42,825 nt of DNA from positions 1-42,825 of IMG/VR virus record IMGVR_UViG_3300045243_000040; one strand, given 5' to 3'. The DNA is from a virus. The first letter of the stretch is position 1, and every line of letters starts with the position of its first letter. A program made the translations under genes and the position numbers. Below are positions 4,670 to 42,825 of the stretch, one piece after another. Below the pieces are notes generated by a model that ran no database searches, was not told where the DNA came from, and was given only the letters and a program-made list of their open reading frames with translations.

Positions 4670-4978
4670 TCAGGCTGCTTTGTTGGGCGGCCAGGCCACG
4701 CTGGAGATCCAGTGCGGCTTGTCTCTGGGGGGCCACCAGCAGAGCCATGCTTCGGCGCCGGCGAGCTTCGCGGCGAACAAGAGGTCGGCTCGGTCTTTGG
4801 GTCCGAAGCTGTGGTACGGGCTGCGGTGTCCGGATTTGACCTCGATGAGGCGGATTGTTCCTTGTTTGCAGGCGACGAGGTCGGCGTCTCCGAGGCTGCC
4901 TGCTGCGCGGGCTACCCACCAGGCATCGTCCTCGAGCAGTCGTCGGACGGCGCGTTCTCTGGCGATGCCGCGGGTCAT
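4670..4978 (-). CDS. Hjc-like Holliday junction resolvase / PD-(D/E)xK nuclease
   Basis: The 102-aa protein has the compact archaeal-type resolvase layout. An N-terminal R-E-R-A-V-R-R-L-L-E helix carries the first Glu. Then come G-D-A-D-L-V-A with the catalytic Asp, I-E-V-K-S-G with the E-x-K pair, and a K-D-R-A-D-L-L-F-A-A-K helix. Such enzymes cut four-way junctions before packaging. The ATG at 4978 overlaps the GH16 stop by four bases. The small size and the motif order give good confidence. Confidence 0.8.
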   Translation of the reverse strand: MTRGIARERAVRRLLEDDAWWVARAAGSLGDADLVACKQGTIRLIEVKSGHRSPYHSFGPKDRADLLFAAKLAGAEAWLCWWPPRDKPHWISSVAWPPNKAA

Positions 4979-5937
4979 GCGAGCGCCCAGACCCGGACAT
5001 AATCGACCGTCATCCTTGCCGGGCCGGGGATCGTCGGCGTCCCACCCCAGCCGCCCATGTTCAACTGCACGCAGGCTGAAACCTCGTTCGCCGTCAGATC
5101 AGCGAGGCCGACATCGGCCGCCTTCGCCGTCCAGACGAGCTTGCCGTCGAAGTAGAAGTCGACATGGTCCTTGTAGACGGCCGCCCCGTACAGGTGGAAA
5201 GCGTCGAAGAGGACGACGCCGAGCGGGTTCGCGCGGCCGCTCTGCCTGGGCGGCTTGTGCATGGTCGTATGGTTGACCTCAGGTTCGCGGCCGAGCTGCT
5301 CGACGACGTCGAGCTCCCATCCGTTCGACCCGTACGGCCAGTCCCACTCCCAGACCATCCCGTTCCAGGTGCCGACCCCGGCAGCGGGTTTGCCTCGTGT
5401 CTCGATGTAGCGGGCGCCCTTGTAGCCCGGCTTCGACGTGAGGAAGGCGCTGGCCCAGACGCTGCCGTTCTTGATGGCGGTGATGACGAGGTTGCCGTTG
5501 CCGTCAAGCTCGACGTTCTGGAGGCCGTTCCAGTAGCCGAGGCCGAGACCAGCATGGCCGGAGTGGACGTTCCACTTCGCCGTGTCGGGCTTCGACCCGG
5601 CTGGCCCGTCGAACTCGTCGCTGAACAGGATCGCGCCGAGAGGGACGGGGGCCGGTCCCGGAGGCGGCGGGGGAGGCGTGACGCTGTTGGCGACGGTGAC
5701 GGAGACTGAGGCGTGGACGGCCCCGTTCGCGGAGGCCACCCCGATCGTGTGCGGCCCGTCAGGGAGCCGCGTCGTGTCGAGTGCGAATGAGAACGGGGCG
5801 GAGGAGTCGAAGCCGCCGTACTTGCCGTCGACGAGATAGTTGACCTGGCCGACGTTCGTTGCGGAGATCTGGACGGTGACTGTCCCCTTGACGGTGGCTC
5901 CGGGTGTTGGGGAAGTGATCTTGATCGTCTGACTCAC
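4975..5937 (-). CDS. GH16-family glucanase-like protein with N-terminal Ig-like domain
   Basis: This 320-aa protein has an Ig-like beta domain (about 5-82: S-P-T-P-G-A-T-V-K-G...), a poly-Pro linker (88-99) and a GH16 catalytic domain (about 103-320). The diagnostic E-L-D-V-V-E motif is at 208-213; Glu208 and Glu213 are the expected nucleophile and acid/base, with Asp210 between them. GH16 enzymes cut beta-glucans or related polysaccharides. The GTG start overlaps the previous stop as GTGA. No signal peptide is seen, so it would be released by lysis or carried on virions. It stands apart from the tail genes, which argues for a soluble depolymerase. Confidence 0.85.
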   Translation of the reverse strand: MSQTIKITSPTPGATVKGTVTVQISATNVGQVNYLVDGKYGGFDSSAPFSFALDTTRLPDGPHTIGVASANGAVHASVSVTVANSVTPPPPPPGPAPVPLGAILFSDEFDGPAGSKPDTAKWNVHSGHAGLGLGYWNGLQNVELDGNGNLVITAIKNGSVWASAFLTSKPGYKGARYIETRGKPAAGVGTWNGMVWEWDWPYGSNGWELDVVEQLGREPEVNHTTMHKPPRQSGRANPLGVVLFDAFHLYGAAVYKDHVDFYFDGKLVWTAKAADVGLADLTANEVSACVQLNMGGWGGTPTIPGPARMTVDYVRVWALA

Positions 5938-6077
5938 GGCCTTCCTCTCTTGATAGTCGAATCGGTATGAGCGGTAGGATGCTTAGGCGTCGGCGGTTCC
6001 ATGCATCCTTCTTGCCTTGTCGATGTGGCCGTCCTGGTCATTCCTCCCTCTCTCTCGGTAGTAGCGGCAGAACTCAT
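5934..6077 (-). CDS. Small hydrophilic protein with N-terminal S-A-A element
   Basis: A 47-aa polar protein (M-S-S-A-A-T-T-E-R-E-G-G...) starting at ATG 6077 and ending in GTGA overlap with the GH16 start. Its codons 3-5 hold the shared TCTGCCGCT element. It is the last member of that series in the direction of transcription. The rest is Thr/Arg/Pro-rich and unrecognised. Confidence 0.6.
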   Translation of the reverse strand: MSSAATTEREGGMTRTATSTRQEGCMEPPTPKHPTAHTDSTIKRGRP

Positions 6078-6166
6078 ACGAGCCACCGTCCTACGTCGAG
6101 CCAGAACACGCAGCCGACGCACATGGCAAGCAGGACGCCATAGCACCAGGCTGGAGGACTATCCAC
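6074..6166 (-). CDS. Single-span membrane microprotein
   Basis: A 30-aa protein starting at GTG 6166, with AAGGA upstream in the preceding gene's last codons. One hydrophobic segment (Y-G-V-L-L-A-M-C-V-G-C-V-F-W-L) fills most of it. The start overlaps the previous stop by eight bases, and the stop overlaps the next ATG. It is similar in size and design to the microproteins at 11556-11636 and 10169-10261. Function unknown. Confidence 0.55.
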   Translation of the reverse strand: MDSPPAWCYGVLLAMCVGCVFWLDVGRWLV

Positions 6167-6392
6167 GGTGTAGTTCCTTGGCTCGGGCTGTCCAGTAGGC
6201 GAGCTTGGCTCCAATGGAGGCCGTCGCGTACCACCTCTTGAACACGCGGCGCTCGGCCTCAGCGATCTGCGCGGCAGAAGCGCCGTCCGGCCAGGGCTTG
6301 CCGTCGCTCGACGTGTCGCCCGGACGCTCCGGGCCGTTGATCTTCGCGGCAGGCTGATCGTGGCCACCACGGCGTACCGATCGAGCGAGCAA
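6159..6392 (-). CDS. Hypothetical protein with two S/P-A-A elements, start uncertain
   Basis: The C-terminal part (A-E-A-E-R-R-V-F-K-R-W-Y...) looks like real helical protein, ending at 6159. The frame contains the dispersed element twice (D-Q-P-A-A-K and G-A-S-A-A-Q). No ATG or GTG is well placed. TTG 6392 gives 77 aa and is used here provisionally, and longer starts are possible. It overlaps a differently framed ORF at 6259-6438, so one of the two could have lost its original start or end. Confidence 0.5.
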   Translation of the reverse strand: MLARSVRRGGHDQPAAKINGPERPGDTSSDGKPWPDGASAAQIAEAERRVFKRWYATASIGAKLAYWTARAKELHRG

Positions 6393-6438
6393 ATAGGCGC
6401 TTGATCGCGGCACTCGATTCGGTTCGGCGCTCAGGCAC
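6259..6438 (-). CDS. Small basic protein with S-A-A element, 3' end uncertain
   Basis: GTG 6438 follows a strong GGAGG site with ideal spacing and overlaps the upstream stop by eight bases, so initiation here is well supported. The N-terminus (V-P-E-R-R-T-E-S-S-A-A-I-K-R) carries the element. The frame runs 59 codons and overlaps the next gene in another frame by about 130 bases. The true product may be shorter, or a frameshift may have occurred. Confidence 0.5.
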   Translation of the reverse strand: MPERRTESSAAIKRLFARSIGTPWWPRSACREDQRPGASGRHVERRQALAGRRFCRADR

Positions 6439-6706
6439 GGAACCTCCAGTACGGCACCGCGCCAGGAGTCCCACCGCGAACGACTGCCCACTCGTACTCG
6501 ATGTCGGTGAAGTGCTCCGGCACCGGGAGCATCTCTACGGGATCGGCCTCCATCTGCGACAGGTTGACGCCCTGCCCGAGCGCCCACTCGCACGCAAGGG
6601 TTGGAGTCTCCCCGAGATCGCGCCTGACGAACGCCGCGTCGCCGTCGGCGTCTGACAGGTACTCCGGCGCTGCCGTATGAGCGGCAGAACGAGCGTCAGG
6701 CTGCAT
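6431..6706 (-). CDS. Hypothetical acidic protein with S-A-A element
   Basis: The 91-aa protein starts at ATG 6706 behind AGGTGG. The N-terminus reads M-Q-P-D-A-R-S-A-A-H-T-A-A, followed by an acidic, Trp-containing body (E-H-F-T-D-I-E-Y-E-W-A-V-V-R-G-G). The longer open frame to 6916 is a shadow of the next gene. No family was recognised. Confidence 0.65.
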   Translation of the reverse strand: MQPDARSAAHTAAPEYLSDADGDAAFVRRDLGETPTLACEWALGQGVNLSQMEADPVEMLPVPEHFTDIEYEWAVVRGGTPGAVPYWRFRA

Positions 6707-7091
6707 CGCCACCACCTGCGTAGTCGAGAAGGCTCCGACTGCCGAGTGGGTTGCGTGGCGTCTCACCGAGGTTGCCGAACTTCTCGTTCGCCTCGGTCTG
6801 CCGCTGCACCTGAAAATCGACCGGCAATCCCGTCCGTGCGCGGAGGTACGTCGAGCCGAGCCGGGAGAGCAGCGCCCACAGCCCCTTGCGCTCCGCGAAC
6901 AGCACGTCGTACTCATCGTCGGCCAGGATCAGGCGCACGTCCACGTCGCGGAAGTCCGGGCGGCTGCTCGCGGAACCGACGAAGTACGGGTGCGAGCCTA
7001 ACGCCGAGAGGAACGGTTTGCACGCTTCGTCCAACTCGTGCAGTTCGAGCGCCGAGAGGTAGCAGCCCTTCGCGGCAGAAGGCTCAGGCAT
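6696..7091 (-). CDS. Nucleotidyltransferase-fold protein
   Basis: The 131-aa protein has the Pol-beta-type signature: V-G-S-A-S-S-R-P-D-F-R-D-V-D-V (G-S followed by D-x-D) and a third acidic position in L-P-V-D-F-Q-V-Q. It lacks the extra domains of CCA-adding enzymes and resembles minimal nucleotidyltransferases. ATG 7091 has GGAGA upstream and puts the shared element at residues 5-7 (P-S-A-A-K). ATG 7136, overlapping the previous stop, is an alternative. Its substrate is unknown. Confidence 0.7.
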   Translation of the reverse strand: MPEPSAAKGCYLSALELHELDEACKPFLSALGSHPYFVGSASSRPDFRDVDVRLILADDEYDVLFAERKGLWALLSRLGSTYLRARTGLPVDFQVQRQTEANEKFGNLGETPRNPLGSRSLLDYAGGGDAA

Positions 7092-7128
7092 CGAGTTCTC
7101 CGAGCGCGTAGGGGACCCCTCCAGACCT

Positions 7129-7320
7129 TCACGCATCGAGTGCGCCTTTCGTGTGCGCCTGTTCTAGATTCAGGCGCTCAGCTTCAAGCACGTCGATCTC
7201 AGCGTGCAGCTTCCGTTCTAGCTCGCGGTCACGACGGTGCCATGAGATCGACCACCACCACAACGTCAGTCGGACGTGCGTGCCGAAGCCGCGAGAGACG
7301 ACGAGCGAGATTGCTCGGGT
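7129..7320 (-). pseudogene. IS-interrupted gene, 3' part
   Basis: This segment encodes the C-terminal 62 residues of a protein split by the IS element. It includes L-T-L-W-W-W-S-I-S-W and a charged coiled-coil-like helix (R-E-L-E-R-K-L-H-A-E-I-D-V-L-E-A-E-R). Joined to 9566-9487 with one target copy, it gives an uninterrupted 87-aa protein. The open frame seen here starts within the IS left end and is not native. Confidence 0.8.
7313..7320. repeat. Target-site duplication, left copy
   Basis: GCTCGGGT directly precedes the IS left end and is repeated at 9487-9494. Eight bases is the usual duplication length for the IS1595 family. Keeping a single copy restores the frame of the interrupted gene. 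Confidence 0.85.
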
Positions 7321-7356
7321 GCGGGATTGTTTACTTGACACAGGGCGGATTCCCCT

Positions 7357-7506
7357 CTATCCTTTACGGGTAGATGGATTGCGCGGCTTCTTTTTCTCAG
7401 CTTCCTTTGCCTCTTTCTTCGCTTGATCGCGTACGGGCTTCGGGAACAGCTTCCGAAGCGCCTCTTGCGTGGTCAGGTCTGACGCCTTCTTCCGAGGTCT
7501 AGCCAT
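7357..7506 (-). CDS. Small basic protein divergent from transposase
   Basis: A 49-aa, Lys/Arg-rich helical protein (M-A-R-P-R-K-K-A-S-D-L-T-T-Q-E-A-L-R-K-L-F-P-K...). Its ATG occupies 7506-7504, so it shares the CATG palindrome with the transposase start on the other strand. No strong ribosome binding site is seen. It belongs to the element rather than the phage and could regulate or assist transposition; function unknown. Confidence 0.6.
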   Translation of the reverse strand: MARPRKKASDLTTQEALRKLFPKPVRDQAKKEAKEAEKKKPRNPSTRKG

Positions 7507-8422
7507 GAGCGAGTTCAACCTTCCCGAGTTGATCGAGCAGTTCGGCTCCGAGGACAAATGCCACGCCTACCTTGAAGAGCTTCGCTGGCCGGAAGGCGTC
7601 AAGTGTCCGCGCTGCGACTCGGACAAAATCTCGAGGATTGCGAAGCGCCGGCAGTTCGACTGTGACGCCTGCAGGTATCAGTTCAGCGTCCGTGTCGGCA
7701 CCCTCTTCCATGACTCCAAGCTCCCGCTGTGGAAGTGGTTCCTGGCCGTCTACATGATGGGCGAGTCCAAGAAGGGCGTCAGCGCTAACCAGCTCAAGCG
7801 GATGCTCGGCGTCAGTTACAAGACCGCCTGGTATCTCTGCCACCGCATCCGGGCCGCGATGCACGACGAGTCCGCGCCGCTCCTGCGCGGGATCGTGGAA
7901 GCCGACGAGACCTACATCGGCGGCAAGCTGCGCCCTGGCACCTACGGGAACCCGCGTGAGGCCAAGCAACATCGCCTCGACAACAAGACGGTCGTTCTCG
8001 GCGCGGTCGAGCGCGGAGGCAAGGTCAGGCTTCGCATGGCTCCCGACGCTTCCAGCGAGTCGATCAAGGGCTTCCTGGCGGACGTGGTGGCCGACGATGC
8101 GGAAGCGATCTACACCGACGCGCACCGCTCCTATCGCGGCATCGAGGACAAGAACACCCGCCATGAGTGGGTCGACCACTCGAAGGACGAGTGGGTGCAT
8201 GGGAAGGTTCACACGAACACGGTGGAGAGTGTGTGGAGTCTCTTCGACCGCAGCGTGATCGGCGCGTACCACAAGCTCAGCACCAAGCACCTGTCCGCGT
8301 ATTTGGACGAAGCCGCGTTCCGCTGGAACAACCGCGAGAACCCCTTCTGGTTCCGCGACATGATCCTTCGTCTGGTCGAAGGCGACACCATGACCTTCGC
8401 GGAGCTGACCGCCTCCAAGTAG
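7505..8422 (+). CDS. IS1595-family transposase (ISXO2-like DDE)
   Basis: The 305-aa protein has an N-terminal zinc ribbon (C34-P-R-C37 and C53-D-A-C56) and a helix-turn-helix region around 90-115. The ISXO2-like catalytic domain follows: V-E-A-D134-E-T-Y-I-G-G, I-Y-T-D205-A-H-R-S-Y and H-T-N-T-V-E241-S-V-W. The last part (H-L-S-A-Y-L-D-E-A-A-F-R-W-N-N-R) is typical of the family. It is intact, so the element may be active. ATG 7505 follows CGAGG and is preferred to the upstream start at 7469. Confidence 0.93.
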   Translation: MSEFNLPELIEQFGSEDKCHAYLEELRWPEGVKCPRCDSDKISRIAKRRQFDCDACRYQFSVRVGTLFHDSKLPLWKWFLAVYMMGESKKGVSANQLKRMLGVSYKTAWYLCHRIRAAMHDESAPLLRGIVEADETYIGGKLRPGTYGNPREAKQHRLDNKTVVLGAVERGGKVRLRMAPDASSESIKGFLADVVADDAEAIYTDAHRSYRGIEDKNTRHEWVDHSKDEWVHGKVHTNTVESVWSLFDRSVIGAYHKLSTKHLSAYLDEAAFRWNNRENPFWFRDMILRLVEGDTMTFAELTASK

Positions 8423-8425
8423 CGC

Positions 8426-8447
8426 GACGGCCTCCGCGGAGGCCGTC
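8426..8447 (+). terminator. Perfect palindrome after the transposase gene
   Basis: GACGGCCTCCG is followed immediately by its reverse complement, four bases past the transposase stop. This forms an 11-bp stem with no T-run. It may act as a terminator or transcript-protecting hairpin for the transposase. Confidence 0.6.
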
Positions 8448-8465
8448 AGCCGAGGGCCGGAGGCC

Positions 8466-8520
8466 CCGTAGCTCAGAGCGCTGTCGTAAGCCCGCACAGT
8501 GTAGGTCCGCAGCTCGGACG
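8466..8520 (+). other. Degenerate tRNA-like fragment
   Basis: This stretch shares CCCCGTAGCTCA, the GCGCTGTCGTAAGC anticodon-arm region and GTAGGTCC with the tRNA-like gene at 8594-8666. The D loop is shortened and an insertion follows the anticodon arm. It looks like a decayed second copy. Nothing else coding was seen between 8448 and 8593. Confidence 0.5.
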
Positions 8521-8593
8521 TTGCAAGTATAGGTCCCTGAAATGGCTTGAATAGGACCTTCTTGCCGTCCGATACGCGTTCTACGTTGGTGCA

Positions 8594-8666
8594 GCCCCCG
8601 TAGCTCAGGTGGATAGAGCAACGCTGTCGTAAGCGTAGGTCCCGGGTTCGAGTCCCGGCGGGGGCC
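8594..8666 (+). tRNA. tRNA-like gene with irregular anticodon loop
   Basis: Acceptor arms GCCCCCG (8594-8600) and CGGGGGC (8659-8665) pair perfectly. The D stem is GCTC/GAGC. The T arm is CCGGG-TTCGAGT-CCCGG (8642-8658). The anticodon arm ACGCT-GTCGTA-AGCGT gives a six-base loop, or eight bases with a four-bp stem, instead of seven. The amino acid therefore cannot be assigned safely; UCG (Arg), CGU (Thr) or GUC (Asp) are all readable. CCA is not encoded. It lies inside the IS, between the transposase and the passenger gene. Confidence 0.7.
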
Positions 8667-8700
8667 CGCCACTTCTCCAATTGCCGCACCTTGTGGGAAA

Positions 8701-9408
8701 TCACGAGGGTTCCTTCTTCGCGTCGACCTGAGACGCAATGGTCTCGTCTGCGGCGCGGATGGTCTCTAGCGTCTCGTCCAACTTCACTATGTCTGCATCG
8801 GAAAGTTCGAAGGCGGGCGTTTTCGTGAATACAGCCATTGGATTGGCCTCTCTGTGGGCCACCCGCCTGCCCTCTATCCGGTGGTTCATCCGGTTGCAAC
8901 ACTGATAAGCCAATCTGACCGTGTCTCTCGCGTTGGCGGGAAGTGCTGGATCGGCAAGGGCCGCGAAATGGTCTGAATGCTGCTGGGCGGGCAAGGCGTC
9001 GTGAGACCTCCACCATGCGCCGCGCTCCTTCGCTTCTTCAATAACCGCAGCGGCTGAGCGAAGCTCGCCCTGCATCGCCAGAAGACCAATTCGCAGCGTC
9101 GCTGGCGCTCCTGTAGAAGCCTCGATCCGATCAATCCTTTGGTCAAGGCTCGCAAGCTCTTCTCGAATCAACGCAAACGGCGATGAGACCCACAGCGAAA
9201 GAAGAATGAGGACCAGCGCCACGAGCAGTCCTATCGCTGCCCAGACCACTGTCCAAAACACAGCGCCCTTTTCGCCATGCCCCCACGAGAAAATGATTCC
9301 TCCCGCCAGGCCACCAAGACCGCACAGCGCGAGCAAAATCCAAGCGCGCCAATCGCTCGTGACGGTCCGCCAAAACGTGCTTCTGGCCCGGTCGCGTGGT
9401 TTTTGCAT
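8701..9408 (-). CDS. IS passenger: two-span membrane protein
   Basis: The 235-aa protein has two hydrophobic segments (about 22-41 and 50-74) and then a long soluble helical tail (L-I-R-E-E-L-A-S-L-D-Q-R-I-D-R-I-E-A). It lies wholly inside the IS and runs opposite to the transposase. It lacks the start-proximal element of the surrounding phage genes, which supports a foreign origin. No family was recognised; a host-derived cargo gene is the simplest reading. Confidence 0.7.
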   Translation of the reverse strand: MQKPRDRARSTFWRTVTSDWRAWILLALCGLGGLAGGIIFSWGHGEKGAVFWTVVWAAIGLLVALVLILLSLWVSSPFALIREELASLDQRIDRIEASTGAPATLRIGLLAMQGELRSAAAVIEEAKERGAWWRSHDALPAQQHSDHFAALADPALPANARDTVRLAYQCCNRMNHRIEGRRVAHREANPMAVFTKTPAFELSDADIVKLDETLETIRAADETIASQVDAKKEPS

Positions 9409-9486
9409 TGATCAGATTCGATAAAGTCCGGGGCGGATGGTTCGGCGCATAAGCTAGCACCAGCCTTGCGTGAAGTAAACAATCCC

Positions 9487-9494
9487 GCTCGGGT
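9487..9494. repeat. Target-site duplication, right copy
   Basis: The second copy of GCTCGGGT adjoins the right end of the IS. Together with 7313-7320 it marks a simple transposition event without deletion of flanking DNA. Confidence 0.85.
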
Positions 9495-9566
9495 GTAGGT
9501 GTTGCGTTCACGCTGGACGCGGAACCCGCTGCGCCGACCCCACGCGGCAGGATGTTCGGCGCTCAC
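9487..9566 (-). pseudogene. IS-interrupted gene, 5' part
   Basis: GTG 9566 has GAGG upstream and overlaps the preceding stop as GTGA. It encodes the first 26 residues (M-S-A-E-H-P-A-A-W-G-R-R...), including a P-A-A version of the dispersed element, and then enters the IS. Read across the excised element into 7312-7129 it gives an 87-aa protein with no frameshift. The original function is unknown. Confidence 0.8.
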
Positions 9567-9925
9567 GACGGCCTCGCAGTCAGGTCAACGTGGTCGCTCG
9601 ACGTAGGAACGCGCAGCGGCTCAGCCCCGACCTCGCGGACATGGCGAGCCATCCACTCCACGAACTCCCTCGCCTTCGGCTCGTCCATGCTCACGGCGTC
9701 GATCACAACCTCGCGACCGAGGATCAGGTTGAGCGCGTTCCGCAGTCGCCAGCGCCAGCCCGAGCCGGGGAGCTTGTAGACCTCGATGAACCACTCGGCC
9801 GGATCGTCCTTGAAGGGCGCGTAGAAGCTCACGCCGAGGATCGAGCAGCCGCACTCGCAGCGGTACTCGCGCGTGACCTGGCGCGGCGGCGCAGTAGCGG
9901 CAGGCTGATCGTTACGCGGGTTCAT
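9563..9925 (-). CDS. Hypothetical protein with Cys cluster
   Basis: The 120-aa protein begins M-N-P-R-N-D-Q-P-A-A-T, with the dispersed element at residues 8-10. A Y-R-C-E-C-G-C cluster near residue 22 suggests metal binding. The middle is Trp-rich (G-S-G-W-R-W-R-L-R-N) and the C-terminus is helical. No family was recognised. It overlaps the neighbouring genes on both sides. Confidence 0.7.
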   Translation of the reverse strand: MNPRNDQPAATAPPRQVTREYRCECGCSILGVSFYAPFKDDPAEWFIEVYKLPGSGWRWRLRNALNLILGREVVIDAVSMDEPKAREFVEWMARHVREVGAEPLRVPTSSDHVDLTARPS

Positions 9926-10172
9926 ATGTCTCCCCGAAGATGTCCGGCTTCACCGGGTAGAACTCGCCCTGCACTCCACGGATGATCCAGTCGTTGTCGC
10001 TCACGCTCAATGGCCCTTCGAGGGTCATGCAGTAGACGCCCGCCTCGTCGTTGTAGGCGACGTTGCCGCCGCTCCACCACTCGATCAGCTTCAAGCTCTC
10101 GGCGTCGGTGAACTGCATCGCCTCGATCACGACGGGCTTCTTGCGGTAGCGCTGCGCGGCAGAATCGCTCAC
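9912..10172 (-). CDS. Conserved phage protein of the R-K-K-P-V-V-I-E-A type
   Basis: The 86-aa protein reads V-S-D-S-A-A-Q-R-Y-R-K-K-P-V-V-I-E-A-M-Q-F, then a D-W-I-I-R-G-V-Q-G-E-F-Y-P-V-K-P-D-I-F segment. This pattern is widespread in phage genomes without a known function. GTG 10172 has AAGGAG with five-base spacing, which decides it over the adjacent GTG 10175. Serine-Ala-Ala at 4-6 is the dispersed element. Confidence 0.8.
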   Translation of the reverse strand: MSDSAAQRYRKKPVVIEAMQFTDAESLKLIEWWSGGNVAYNDEAGVYCMTLEGPLSVSDNDWIIRGVQGEFYPVKPDIFGETYEPA

Positions 10173-10261
10173 CACGGCTCCTTCGTCAGCCCTAGCCTGA
10201 GGATGCCCACAAGGATGAGAACGACGGCTACCGCTGCGCCAAGCGCGAATCAGGATTTCAC
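10169..10261 (-). pseudogene. Membrane microprotein frame with in-frame TGA at codon 4
   Basis: GTG 10261 overlaps the upstream stop as GTGA, and the frame ends as TGA over the next start. Codon 4 is TGA. After it the frame encodes a clean membrane span (A-L-G-A-A-V-A-V-V-L-I-L-V-G-I-L-R-L-G-L). Without the TGA it would be a 30-aa membrane microprotein like those at 6074 and 11556. It is either a nonsense mutant, a readthrough case or a base error. Confidence 0.45.
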
Positions 10262-16612: not shown

Positions 16613-17746
16613 TTATGGTGCCTCCGTAATCGGCGGACTGTTGCGGGCCAGCTTCTCGAGCCGGTCGATGAGGTTGGACGCTTCGTCTTTGCTGAGCGTC
16701 TCGCGAAGCGGCGCCCAGTGAAGTTCCTCGTAATCGTCGCGCTTTGCCATAGGTGGATCTTGATTGCGCATCTTCGCGACCGCCATATACAGGTGTTCCG
16801 TGTGCAACCTGCCAGCCTCCCGCAGCGTCCCGACCAGCACGTTCAGCTTCTTCTTCTGGTCGGCCGTGATCTTCAGCGGGCGCTTCGTCTCCGTGATCTC
16901 CTTGCCACCGGGTGCGTCGTTGGGGACCGGGACGGGTGAGTCCTCGAACAGGAGGTCGTCAGCGGGCGGGATCGGCGCGGCCGAGCGGGCGGTGCGCGTC
17001 GTCGGCACGGGCTCGGCCTCCAACGCTTCCTTGAGGCCGACTGCGGCCATCAGGCGCGGCGGGATCGGCGTGTACGACATCTCGCCGTTGCCCGGCTCGA
17101 GCGCCGGCCGTCCACCCGACGCCAGCTGCTCATAGCTGACCTGGCAGTCGAGCACCGGCACCACATACCGAACTGCCTGTCCGTTCACATTGCCGCGCCG
17201 CTCCACGATCCTGAGTTTCGCCGGCACGAACGGGCGGCCCTGCGCGATACCCTGCACGAGCTCCAGCGAGCCGAGCAACTCCCGTGCGGCGTTCTCGCCC
17301 TTCGATTCGAGCCTCCAGCCGAGTAGCGTCGTCAACTCCGGTAGTGCCACGGTCAGACGGGTGATGAGCGAGCACTTGTCGTCGCCCTCCGCTACGCACT
17401 TGCAGGGCTGGCCGTCGTCCATCTCGATCCCGTCGCAACGCCGCTCCACCAGGGTCGGCGACGTGCGCAGCTCGTAAGACTGGCGCAGGCTGTAGTTGAC
17501 CAGAACGAGGACAGGCAGTTCCGAGGTCTCGGTCGTGAGCTGGAACTGCGGGCCGGTCGGCGATTCCCAAGGGGTAGGTGTTCCGCCGTACAGGCCCGCA
17601 GCCTGAGCGATCAGCCCCTGGTCGGGGCTGGTCAGACGCCAGTGGGTGAGGCGGCGCGGTTCGCCCTTGGGGCCTTTTTCGCCCATGCGGATGCGGCCGG
17701 CCTCGGAGAGGCGGCGCTGTAGCTCGATCAGTGGTGTGGGGCTCAT
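16613..17746 (-). CDS. phiC31 gp3-like protein (recombination directionality factor family)
   Basis: The 377-aa protein matches the gp3-like family. It has G-R-I-R-M-G-E-K-G-P-K-G-E-P-R-R-L-T-H-W-R-L-T-S, Y-G-G-T-P-T-P-W, and R-R-C-D-G-I followed by P-C-K-C. The C-terminal part is a charged helical region. In phiC31 gp3 switches the serine integrase to excision, but relatives occur in phages without an integrase and may serve in replication. No integrase was found here. It sits next to a RecB-like exonuclease. Confidence 0.8.
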   Translation of the reverse strand: MSPTPLIELQRRLSEAGRIRMGEKGPKGEPRRLTHWRLTSPDQGLIAQAAGLYGGTPTPWESPTGPQFQLTTETSELPVLVLVNYSLRQSYELRTSPTLVERRCDGIEMDDGQPCKCVAEGDDKCSLITRLTVALPELTTLLGWRLESKGENAARELLGSLELVQGIAQGRPFVPAKLRIVERRGNVNGQAVRYVVPVLDCQVSYEQLASGGRPALEPGNGEMSYTPIPPRLMAAVGLKEALEAEPVPTTRTARSAAPIPPADDLLFEDSPVPVPNDAPGGKEITETKRPLKITADQKKKLNVLVGTLREAGRLHTEHLYMAVAKMRNQDPPMAKRDDYEELHWAPLRETLSKDEASNLIDRLEKLARNSPPITEAP

Positions 17747-39443: not shown

Positions 39444-40703
39444 TTACGAGGCGGTCGTGATCAGAGCGAACGCGCCGTCGTCGACGACGTCGGCCTCGAA
39501 TGCGCCGATGATGCCGACCTCGACACCGCCGATAGCCGGCTCGACGACACGGAGCTCCACCGGAGCACCGGCCGTCTCGGCGACGAGCAGGCCAGCGGAG
39601 TCGCCGACGATGATCGTTCCGGAGTCGAGTCCACGCGAGATCACGATGTTCAGCGGACCGATGTTCTGGCCATTGACCGACATGAACTGCGTGAACGCGT
39701 TGGACGTGAGCCCCAGGAAGTAGCCGAACCTGTCCGGGGCGAGGTAGATCGTATCTGCGACCCTGCCGCTGTTCGCGAACACGGCTGCGTAGCCGGCACC
39801 GATGCCGGTCATCATCTGGGCGAACGTATCGGTCGCCCCGATCTGCGTCGAGATGTGGTGCGAGTAGGCGGAGTCGGTGAGCGCCTTGGCGGCGTCCTGC
39901 TCCGTCTTCAGCGCGTAGTCGGCCGCTGCGAGGTCGAACCACAGCGACAGCGCGTCCGGGGTCGTCCAGTTGATCGCCTGCCACGACAGGTCGCCGCCAC
40001 CGAGATAGGTGGACGCGGTCTGCGTGACGAGGTCGACGACCATTCCCTGGTTGCCGGCCTCCGTCTTCTGGGTGTTCTGGACCGAGACGATCGGCCGGGT
40101 GGTGACCTTCGGGTAGGTGAGCGTCCCGCGCATCAGCGAGGTCCGCATCGCCGAGTTGACCAGGTTCCGGTTCTTGTTGATGATCTGGAAGATCTGGTCG
40201 AGGTACTGCGGCGTCTGTAGGCCGGCGACGTTCGATGAGAGCGTGTTCGCCGGTGTGCGCTGCAGGAGAGCCATCCGCTCGCGAGCCCTGAGGACGGTGT
40301 CGTTACCGCCCGCCAGCTGCGCGATCTTGCTGCACTCGGTCGAGCCGCGCGTGAGAATCATGTCGCGCGCGTAGGTGGCGAAGTCGCGGTAGATGATGCC
40401 GTCGCCGTCGCTCTCGACTCCGTCCTCGACTCCGGCCATCGCCTGCCGTGCCTTCTTGGCGTTCGCGATCGCAGCGTTCGTGGCCGAGATGTCCTCGGTC
40501 AGCTGCGTCGTCTCCGCGTCGATCTCGGTGACGCGCTCGCGGTACTTCAGAATGTGCTCCTGCTCGACCTCGGTGAGCGTCTTGTCGTCACCTTCACGGG
40601 AGTTGATCGCTGCGTTCAGCGCCTCCCACTTCTGGGTCGTGACTTCGCGCTCGTCGAGCAGCATCGACAGGCGGTTCTCCGCCTGGGTGGTCGATGCGGC
40701 CAT
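39444..40703 (-). CDS. Major capsid protein, HK97 fold
   Basis: The 419-aa protein has an N-terminal coiled-coil scaffold-like delta domain (1-90: L-D-E-R-E-V...I-L-K-Y-R-E-R-V-T-E-I). The HK97 fold follows (from about 130: S-M-R-T-S-L-M-R-G-T-L-T-Y-P...A-G-N-Q-G-M-V-V, L-A-P-D-R-F-G-Y). ATG 40703 has GGAGG upstream. The delta domain should be removed by the adjacent protease. The 130 bases upstream hold nothing I can support. Confidence 0.92.
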   Translation of the reverse strand: MAASTTQAENRLSMLLDEREVTTQKWEALNAAINSREGDDKTLTEVEQEHILKYRERVTEIDAETTQLTEDISATNAAIANAKKARQAMAGVEDGVESDGDGIIYRDFATYARDMILTRGSTECSKIAQLAGGNDTVLRARERMALLQRTPANTLSSNVAGLQTPQYLDQIFQIINKNRNLVNSAMRTSLMRGTLTYPKVTTRPIVSVQNTQKTEAGNQGMVVDLVTQTASTYLGGGDLSWQAINWTTPDALSLWFDLAAADYALKTEQDAAKALTDSAYSHHISTQIGATDTFAQMMTGIGAGYAAVFANSGRVADTIYLAPDRFGYFLGLTSNAFTQFMSVNGQNIGPLNIVISRGLDSGTIIVGDSAGLLVAETAGAPVELRVVEPAIGGVEVGIIGAFEADVVDDGAFALITTAS

Positions 40704-41782: not shown

Positions 41783-42825
41783 CAGTTCCTCCCTAGTCCG
41801 ACCAGCCGCGGCTGCGGCGGCTGGTTCTGTTGTGCCGGCGAAGCGCCCGCCGTCGGCGGCGCCAGCGGTGAAGGCTGCTCCGTAGCGGCCTGCGGGTCGT
41901 CCTCGTCAGTGGCGAACGGTCCGACAGCGACACCCGTTTCAGCGTGGAGCGGCTGGAACGTGTCTTGCGCGTCGAACCACACCCACTGACCACTCGGCAG
42001 CGCCTGCGAGTTGAACGCGTCCGCGATCCTTTTCGCGGTCGGGCGCAACTCGAAACGCCACCACATCTCGCCCAGCATCCCCGGGTTCTGGTAGGTCATC
42101 CCCCAGCGGATCGCCATGTTGAGCAGAACGGCAGGTATGCCGAACGCAGCTGCAAGGGCGAGCGCGTTGAATTCCTGGTTCTCTAGGAGCGCGAGATCTT
42201 TCGGGTTGAACGAGAGCTGCGCGAAGTCGATCTCGGGCGGCAGGACCGGGGGCGCCCCAGAGCGTGCCGCTGTCCGTTCCTGCCACTGGGACTGCAGGGC
42301 TTTCGCTTGCGCTGCGTCAAGCTTCCGCTGCGACTTCAATGCCACCTTCGGGATGCCGCCAGTGTTCACCTCGAGCGCCGCGTTCCCCGCTGCTAGGAGA
42401 CCCCATGCGAGCTGCGCGTACGCTCCGATCGCCGGCGTCCCGTGCGCCTGGAACGTGAAATTTGCGCCAGGGTTCCGGTCGATCTGGATGATGTCCGCCG
42501 GGTCGAGCGTGTCTCCGCCGAGGATCTTGTATTCGCGGACACCGTCCCGCCACAACGGTTCACACATCCGGGCCGGAATCGTCGTCCAGTTACGCGGAAA
42601 CCCGTTCGAGTACCGCTGCGTCACGAACGCCAACCCGTACCCCCACCCGTACATGTCGGCTACGAGCGCGAAGATCGCGTCCGACACGCCGTTCGGGTAG
42701 TAGAGCGGGTCTGGGTTGCACACCCACATCGGCTCCGTCGCATCCGCCACGTTCGGCGCCTCGAAACGGAGCGGCATCGACGCGATCTGCTGCGCGTTCA
42801 TCTGGATCGCCCGGTTTGCAATCCA
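41782..42825 (-). CDS. Portal protein, C-terminal part (gene wraps around the origin)
   Basis: This is the main part of the 420-aa HK97-type portal protein; the N-terminal residues are encoded at 346-1. It reads Y-G-W-G-Y-G-L-A-F-V-T-Q-R-Y, P-A-R-M-C-E-P-L-W-R-D-G-V-R-E-Y, and N-A-L-A-L-A-A-A-F-G-I-P-A-V-L-L-N in the region that forms the portal clip and stem. A Pro/Gln-rich tail follows. Positions 42699-42825 duplicate 1-127. Confidence 0.9.
   Translation of the reverse strand, partial: WIANRAIQMNAQQIASMPLRFEAPNVADATEPMWVCNPDPLYYPNGVSDAIFALVADMYGWGYGLAFVTQRYSNGFPRNWTTIPARMCEPLWRDGVREYKILGGDTLDPADIIQIDRNPGANFTFQAHGTPAIGAYAQLAWGLLAAGNAALEVNTGGIPKVALKSQRKLDAAQAKALQSQWQERTAARSGAPPVLPPEIDFAQLSFNPKDLALLENQEFNALALAAAFGIPAVLLNMAIRWGMTYQNPGMLGEMWWRFELRPTAKRIADAFNSQALPSGQWVWFDAQDTFQPLHAETGVAVGPFATDEDDPQAATEQPSPLAPPTAGASPAQQNQPPQPRLVGLGRN
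42699..42825. repeat. Terminal direct repeat, right copy (circular overlap)
   Basis: Identical to bases 1-127. One copy must be dropped to obtain the 42,698-bp circle, and the portal gene is then continuous. Confidence 0.95.

Follow-up and report, generated by a model that had tools for sequence, protein, structure and literature searches.

An IS1595-family transporter element with a highly variable and apparently replaceable cargo gene is inserted in a small phage gene

Transporter IS elements (tIS) of the IS1595 family carry a passenger gene that is unrelated to transposition (PMC3129680, citing Siguier et al., 2009). The element described here resembles the IS1595 tIS, as far as these are characterized in that article, in its transposase domains, inverted ends, 8-bp duplication and passenger gene. 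It is found in the phage contig IMGVR_UViG_3300045243_000040, and the whole stretch of DNA that was analyzed (42,825 bases) is called the window below. The frame of the element consists of the following features.

7322..9487, plus strand: cargo-bearing IS1595-family element of the transporter IS type, 2,166 bp; about 60 relatives have ends and a duplication of the same kind
7314..7321, no strand assigned: left copy of the 8-bp target duplication CTCGGGTG
9488..9495, no strand assigned: right copy of the 8-bp target duplication CTCGGGTG
7322..7343, plus strand: left terminal inverted repeat, matching the right end at 19/22 positions
9466..9487, minus strand: right terminal inverted repeat
7505..8422, plus strand: IS1595 transposase, 305 aa (Pfam and NCBIfam)
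7335..7363, plus strand: predicted transposase promoter, with -35 TTGACA (7335-7340) inside the end repeat, a 17-nt spacer and -10 TATCCT (7358-7363)
8426..8447, no strand assigned: perfect 11+11 bp palindrome past the transposase stop, terminator-like

The transposase contains the DDE_Tnp_IS1595 domain (Pfam, 1.5e-39) and an N-terminal zinc ribbon (Zn_ribbon_IS1595, 6e-16) and matches the NCBIfam profile transpos_IS1595 (3e-61), which bears out the family assigned in the original prediction. A 505-aa minus-strand frame at 7499-9016 overlaps the transposase in antisense and was rejected as spurious. The first 15 bp of the two ends (CGGGATTGTTTACTT) are identical and the inverted repeats match at 19/22 bp overall. 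The direct repeat at the flanks spans 9 bp (GCTCGGGTG, at 7313-7321 and 9487-9495), and the 8-bp duplication can therefore be read in two registers from the window sequence alone. In about 60 relatives every end starts with [C/G][G/A]nGATTrT and the duplications are 8 bp, which sets the element at 7322-9487 and the duplication as CTCGGGTG. The bounds of 7321-9486 predicted earlier had the duplication on both flanks and the inverted-repeat ends right and were one base off. The relatives used for the comparison of ends were database sequences, not ISfinder entries. At the left end, the T-A-n-n-n-T pattern at 17-nt spacing is kept over 62 elements and the promoter score was reached by none of 500 shuffles. 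The right end also has a -35 box and a -10 signal, the latter weaker than the left-end -10 but significant. The intact ends, the duplication and the open frames would be consistent with a recent insertion.

The 62 elements, the window element included, were those with recognizable ends and duplications. A convergent cargo frame of at least 100 aa that starts near the right end is found in 60 of them; the exceptions are L021 (co-directional cargo) and L046 (no cargo frame). The layout was repeated in 10 of 12 further elements from two bacterial classes, two of the 10 (L154 and L165) being copies of the already sampled L010 and L072. Eighteen elements on one branch of the transposase tree carry proteasome-like hydrolase cargo, and most others encode proteins with N-terminal membrane helices. 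The distribution of the hydrolase type requires a single change on the tree, compared with 15.7 in shuffles. The hydrolase cargo has the proteasome/Anbu fold, and the catalytic T1, D17 and K32 are retained in most of the aligned sequences. In L070, L076, L080 and L064 the elements of the hydrolase branch share the target word ACTGAAGT or ACTAAAGT, which points to a favored target site.

The window element, whose cargo has predicted N-terminal membrane helices, holds three features between the terminator-like palindrome and its right end.

8701..9408, minus strand: cargo gene (235 aa) with two transmembrane helices predicted near the N-terminus of the protein, convergent with the transposase
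8594..8667, plus strand: tRNA-Arg-like gene whose stems are perfect, with an anticodon loop of 6 nt and without an encoded CCA (ARAGORN; Rfam tRNA 51.4 bits; closest to tRNA-Arg)
8461..8540, plus strand: incomplete and degenerate second copy of the tRNA-like gene, with direct repeats D2, D9, D11 and D15 and no cloverleaf

The 235-aa frame at 8701-9408 lies between the ends, as does the passenger gene of a tIS, which transposition does not require. Searches of plasmids, phages, viral contigs and 399 genomes returned only weak partial matches to the cargo protein. Its transmembrane helices were predicted by hydropathy and by a low-confidence model, the single-sequence fold being helical with a pLDDT of 59. 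The codon-position signal of the gene is weak (GC3 0.64 vs 0.87 in the transposase), and the PADLOC match of only 0.007 places it in no known anti-phage defence family. The tRNA-like gene at 8594-8667, which the original prediction had not listed, folds into a cloverleaf with an anticodon loop of 6 nt where a functional tRNA has 7 nt. ARAGORN detected no tRNA inside the ends of any relative, and the tRNA pattern of the window had no match in viral contigs. A short tRNA-Ser-like match in L045 was discarded since it looks like a fragment and the ends of the L045 element were not found.

Such properties might be expected if this were a plain IS1595 insertion that had once trapped random host DNA, the cargo and the tRNA-like gene having no role. 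The orphan status and weak coding signal of the window cargo and the defective tRNA-like gene speak for this explanation. An accidental passenger would not account for the long convergent frame kept in the slot by 60 of the 62 elements, for a cargo class that tracks the transposase tree, or for the retention of catalytic residues in the hydrolase cargo. We consider it unlikely, although it is the strongest of the rival explanations, and prefer a cargo that is carried as a regular part of the element.

Comparison of close relatives indicated how the cargo varies. The transposases of L070 and L076 are 94.6% identical and their cargo proteins 25.6%; for L038 and L040 the values are 92.3% and 28.8%. 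Detectably related cargo was found in only 9 of 40 pairs with transposase identity of at least 70%. The DNA is about 85% identical up to the transposase stop codon, where identity breaks down to about 37%. The cargo of L076 is 48% identical to that of L163 and 26% to that of its sister L070, while the transposase of L163 is 68% identical to that of L070. On sequence comparison, this pattern suggests that the cargo may be replaced as a segment and not changed gradually.

It could be argued that the cargo diversifies extremely fast in place, with no exchange, and the inheritance of the cargo class together with the transposase is in line with such divergence. The identity, however, drops sharply to the random level while the adjoining 1.1 kb remains at about 85%, and the L076 cargo is nearer to that of a distant transposase lineage than to its sister's. 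Divergence in place is thus rather improbable, although it keeps some probability for the transmembrane class, and segment replacement is the reading that we adopt. The replaceable, hypervariable cargo is the unexpected part of these results; transporter IS elements are already known. Our literature search on IS cargo with defence functions yielded nothing useful and did not cover key IS papers, so that an earlier description is possible.

A PADLOC scan of 61 cargo proteins gave only one strong match, to the phage-defence candidate PDC-S42 (1.1e-73), which by our reading belongs to the L084 cargo. Hypervariability in a fixed format is the expectation for conflict genes. A defence or exclusion role is favored because the hypervariable cargo in its fixed format fits this expectation. 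We tentatively propose that the cargo acts in conflict, as a defence or exclusion factor encoded by a single gene, and so repays the cost of carrying it. Somewhat more speculatively, this widespread IS1595 clade could be specialized for the transport of hypervariable conflict effectors, each encoded by a single gene (for a membrane protein or a proteasome-like hydrolase) and swapped as a cassette in the interval from the transposase to the right end; phages could carry and spread such elements.

When the flanks of the window element are joined, a minus-strand frame of 87 codons plus stop is restored, with a GTG start at 9566 and its end at 7129, as had been predicted. The parts of the interrupted gene and its neighbor are as follows.

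9496..9566, minus strand: 5' part of the interrupted gene; its GTG start and the stop codon of the upstream gene overlap in GTGA, and the start context is the same in L095
7129..7321, minus strand: 3' part of the interrupted gene, with a homologue in L160; its frame (70 aa) stays open, starting with a GTG of the left end repeat (7341)
9563..9925, minus strand: upstream neighbor gene, with 92% DNA identity in L095, a related phage, as far as the start of the interrupted gene

The search for the uninterrupted protein in related phages, which the original prediction had proposed, found a homologue of the 3' part in L160 (79% over 62 aa). The similarity crosses the junction, 13 of 20 nt matching in frame on the far side (P about 0.001 by chance). 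The intact homologue and the match across the junction indicate that the element entered an existing gene, in agreement with the predicted order of events. It is very improbable that the joined frame is due to chance, with the element sitting between genes. The 5' part is merely 71 nt and the N-terminal element of the restored gene is absent from the L160 homologue, both of which would suit a chance frame; the 79% identity of the 3' part, the matching nucleotides beyond the junction and the GTGA overlap with the upstream gene, which the gene in the same slot of L095 likewise shows, all count against it. We therefore retain the interpretation of a split native gene. The restored N-terminus (VSAEHPAAW) has the P-A-A start-proximal form, and the protein genes inside the IS (MSEFNLPEL... 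and MQKPRDRAR...) lack it; on both counts the original prediction proved correct.

This form is common to about 14 small genes on the minus strand at 6.0-13.2 kb of the window, which have an S/P-A-A element just after the start codon. The DNA word of the element is TCTGCCGC or CCTGCCGC. The same start-proximal element is found in L095 at 7655-10206, on different genes. By sequence, the small genes of the window and L095 look as if they had been shuffled at this element.

The contig encodes a phage portal, a terminase and further phage genes. Positions 1-127 and 42699-42825 are identical. Such a direct terminal repeat (127 bp) normally marks a circular contig, and it indicates a circle of about 42.7 kb and a complete or nearly complete genome. 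The element was accordingly assembled within one phage context. Close relatives of the phage occur across several metagenomes, and 26 loci carry its 419-aa protein (39444-40703), which is taken to be the major capsid protein. A protein with bacterial Ig and glycosyl hydrolase 16 domains is encoded at 4975-5937, and its target is possibly a host polysaccharide. The phage had been described as lytic. In favor of this description, a domain search of the circular contig found no tyrosine or serine recombinase (integrase) domain such as a temperate phage would carry; a gene resembling Gp3/recombination directionality factors at 16613-17746, in a phage with no detectable integrase, points the other way, and the description stands only in part. 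We found no suitable literature survey on the rarity of IS elements in lytic phages.

The source is a metagenome contig, but an assembly chimera of a bacterial IS contig with phage DNA is scarcely credible, since the joining of two contigs would not make a target duplication, which here is exact over 8 bp and has the register that the relatives predict, and the restored gene has an intact homologue and the contig closes as a circle.

The insertion in the window is an ordinary IS event that is well documented from the assembled contig. A second case was found in L093, a phage with a P22-like portal gene, in which an element of the same clade (5769-7519) splits a 719-codon frame and is flanked by the duplication GACATTTC. 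Entry of this clade into phage genomes is thus repeated and not unique.

The best overall explanation, which we regard as highly probable, is a transporter IS in a phage gene, with a replaceable cargo slot and possible conflict cargo. The anatomy of the locus shows that an IS1595 tIS, mobilized by its DDE transposase, entered a small native phage gene at codon 24-27 and duplicated 8 bp there. The transposase is predicted from conserved sequence to be read from the promoter with its -35 box in the left end, and the cargo gene would be read from the right end towards the transposase. The segment from the transposase stop codon to the right end would be a replaceable slot, in which the cargo is exchanged while the ends and the transposase stay, as the sharp identity breaks and the conflicting relationships of cargo and transposase suggest. 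Exchange between elements is perhaps brought about by homologous recombination. In the window element the slot holds the gene of an orphan protein with two predicted membrane helices and, probably picked up along with it, a defective tRNA-Arg-like gene. That the phage tolerates the insertion may be explained by the split gene being one of numerous small accessory genes.

The locus provides a clear IS insertion in a complete phage genome for which the intact form of the split gene is known, and the clade represents a simple mobile element whose cargo is more variable than any other part. If the cargo genes are defence or exclusion genes, the clade would amount to a ready-made library of single-gene systems and would be one of the routes along which such genes are moved by phages.

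Differences from the tIS, as characterized in the article cited above, are that the single cargo gene of this clade faces the transposase, begins immediately inside the right end and is apparently exchanged among close relatives, and that the window copy lies in a phage genome and contains a tRNA-like gene in addition. The tRNA-like gene is similar to bacterial tRNA-Arg (CCT/TCT) in all its stems and the T-loop and differs in its 6-nt anticodon loop, the missing CCA, its place inside an IS and the degenerate second copy beside it. The hydrolase cargo of the 18 relatives, as distinct from the window cargo, resembles the proteasome beta subunit and Anbu (Ntn hydrolases) in its T1/D17/K32 positions and in its fold (Foldseek probability 1.00 and TM-score 0.72-0.80 by target length for the top Anbu matches); unlike the proteasome and Anbu proteins, it is IS-borne and highly diverse and has N- and C-terminal extensions. 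Integrase or attC sites of the kind known from integrons were not seen in the IS1595 clade, but the clade works like integrons and allelic cassette systems, of which it is not a member, in that a conserved mobile platform carries a replaceable expressed gene.
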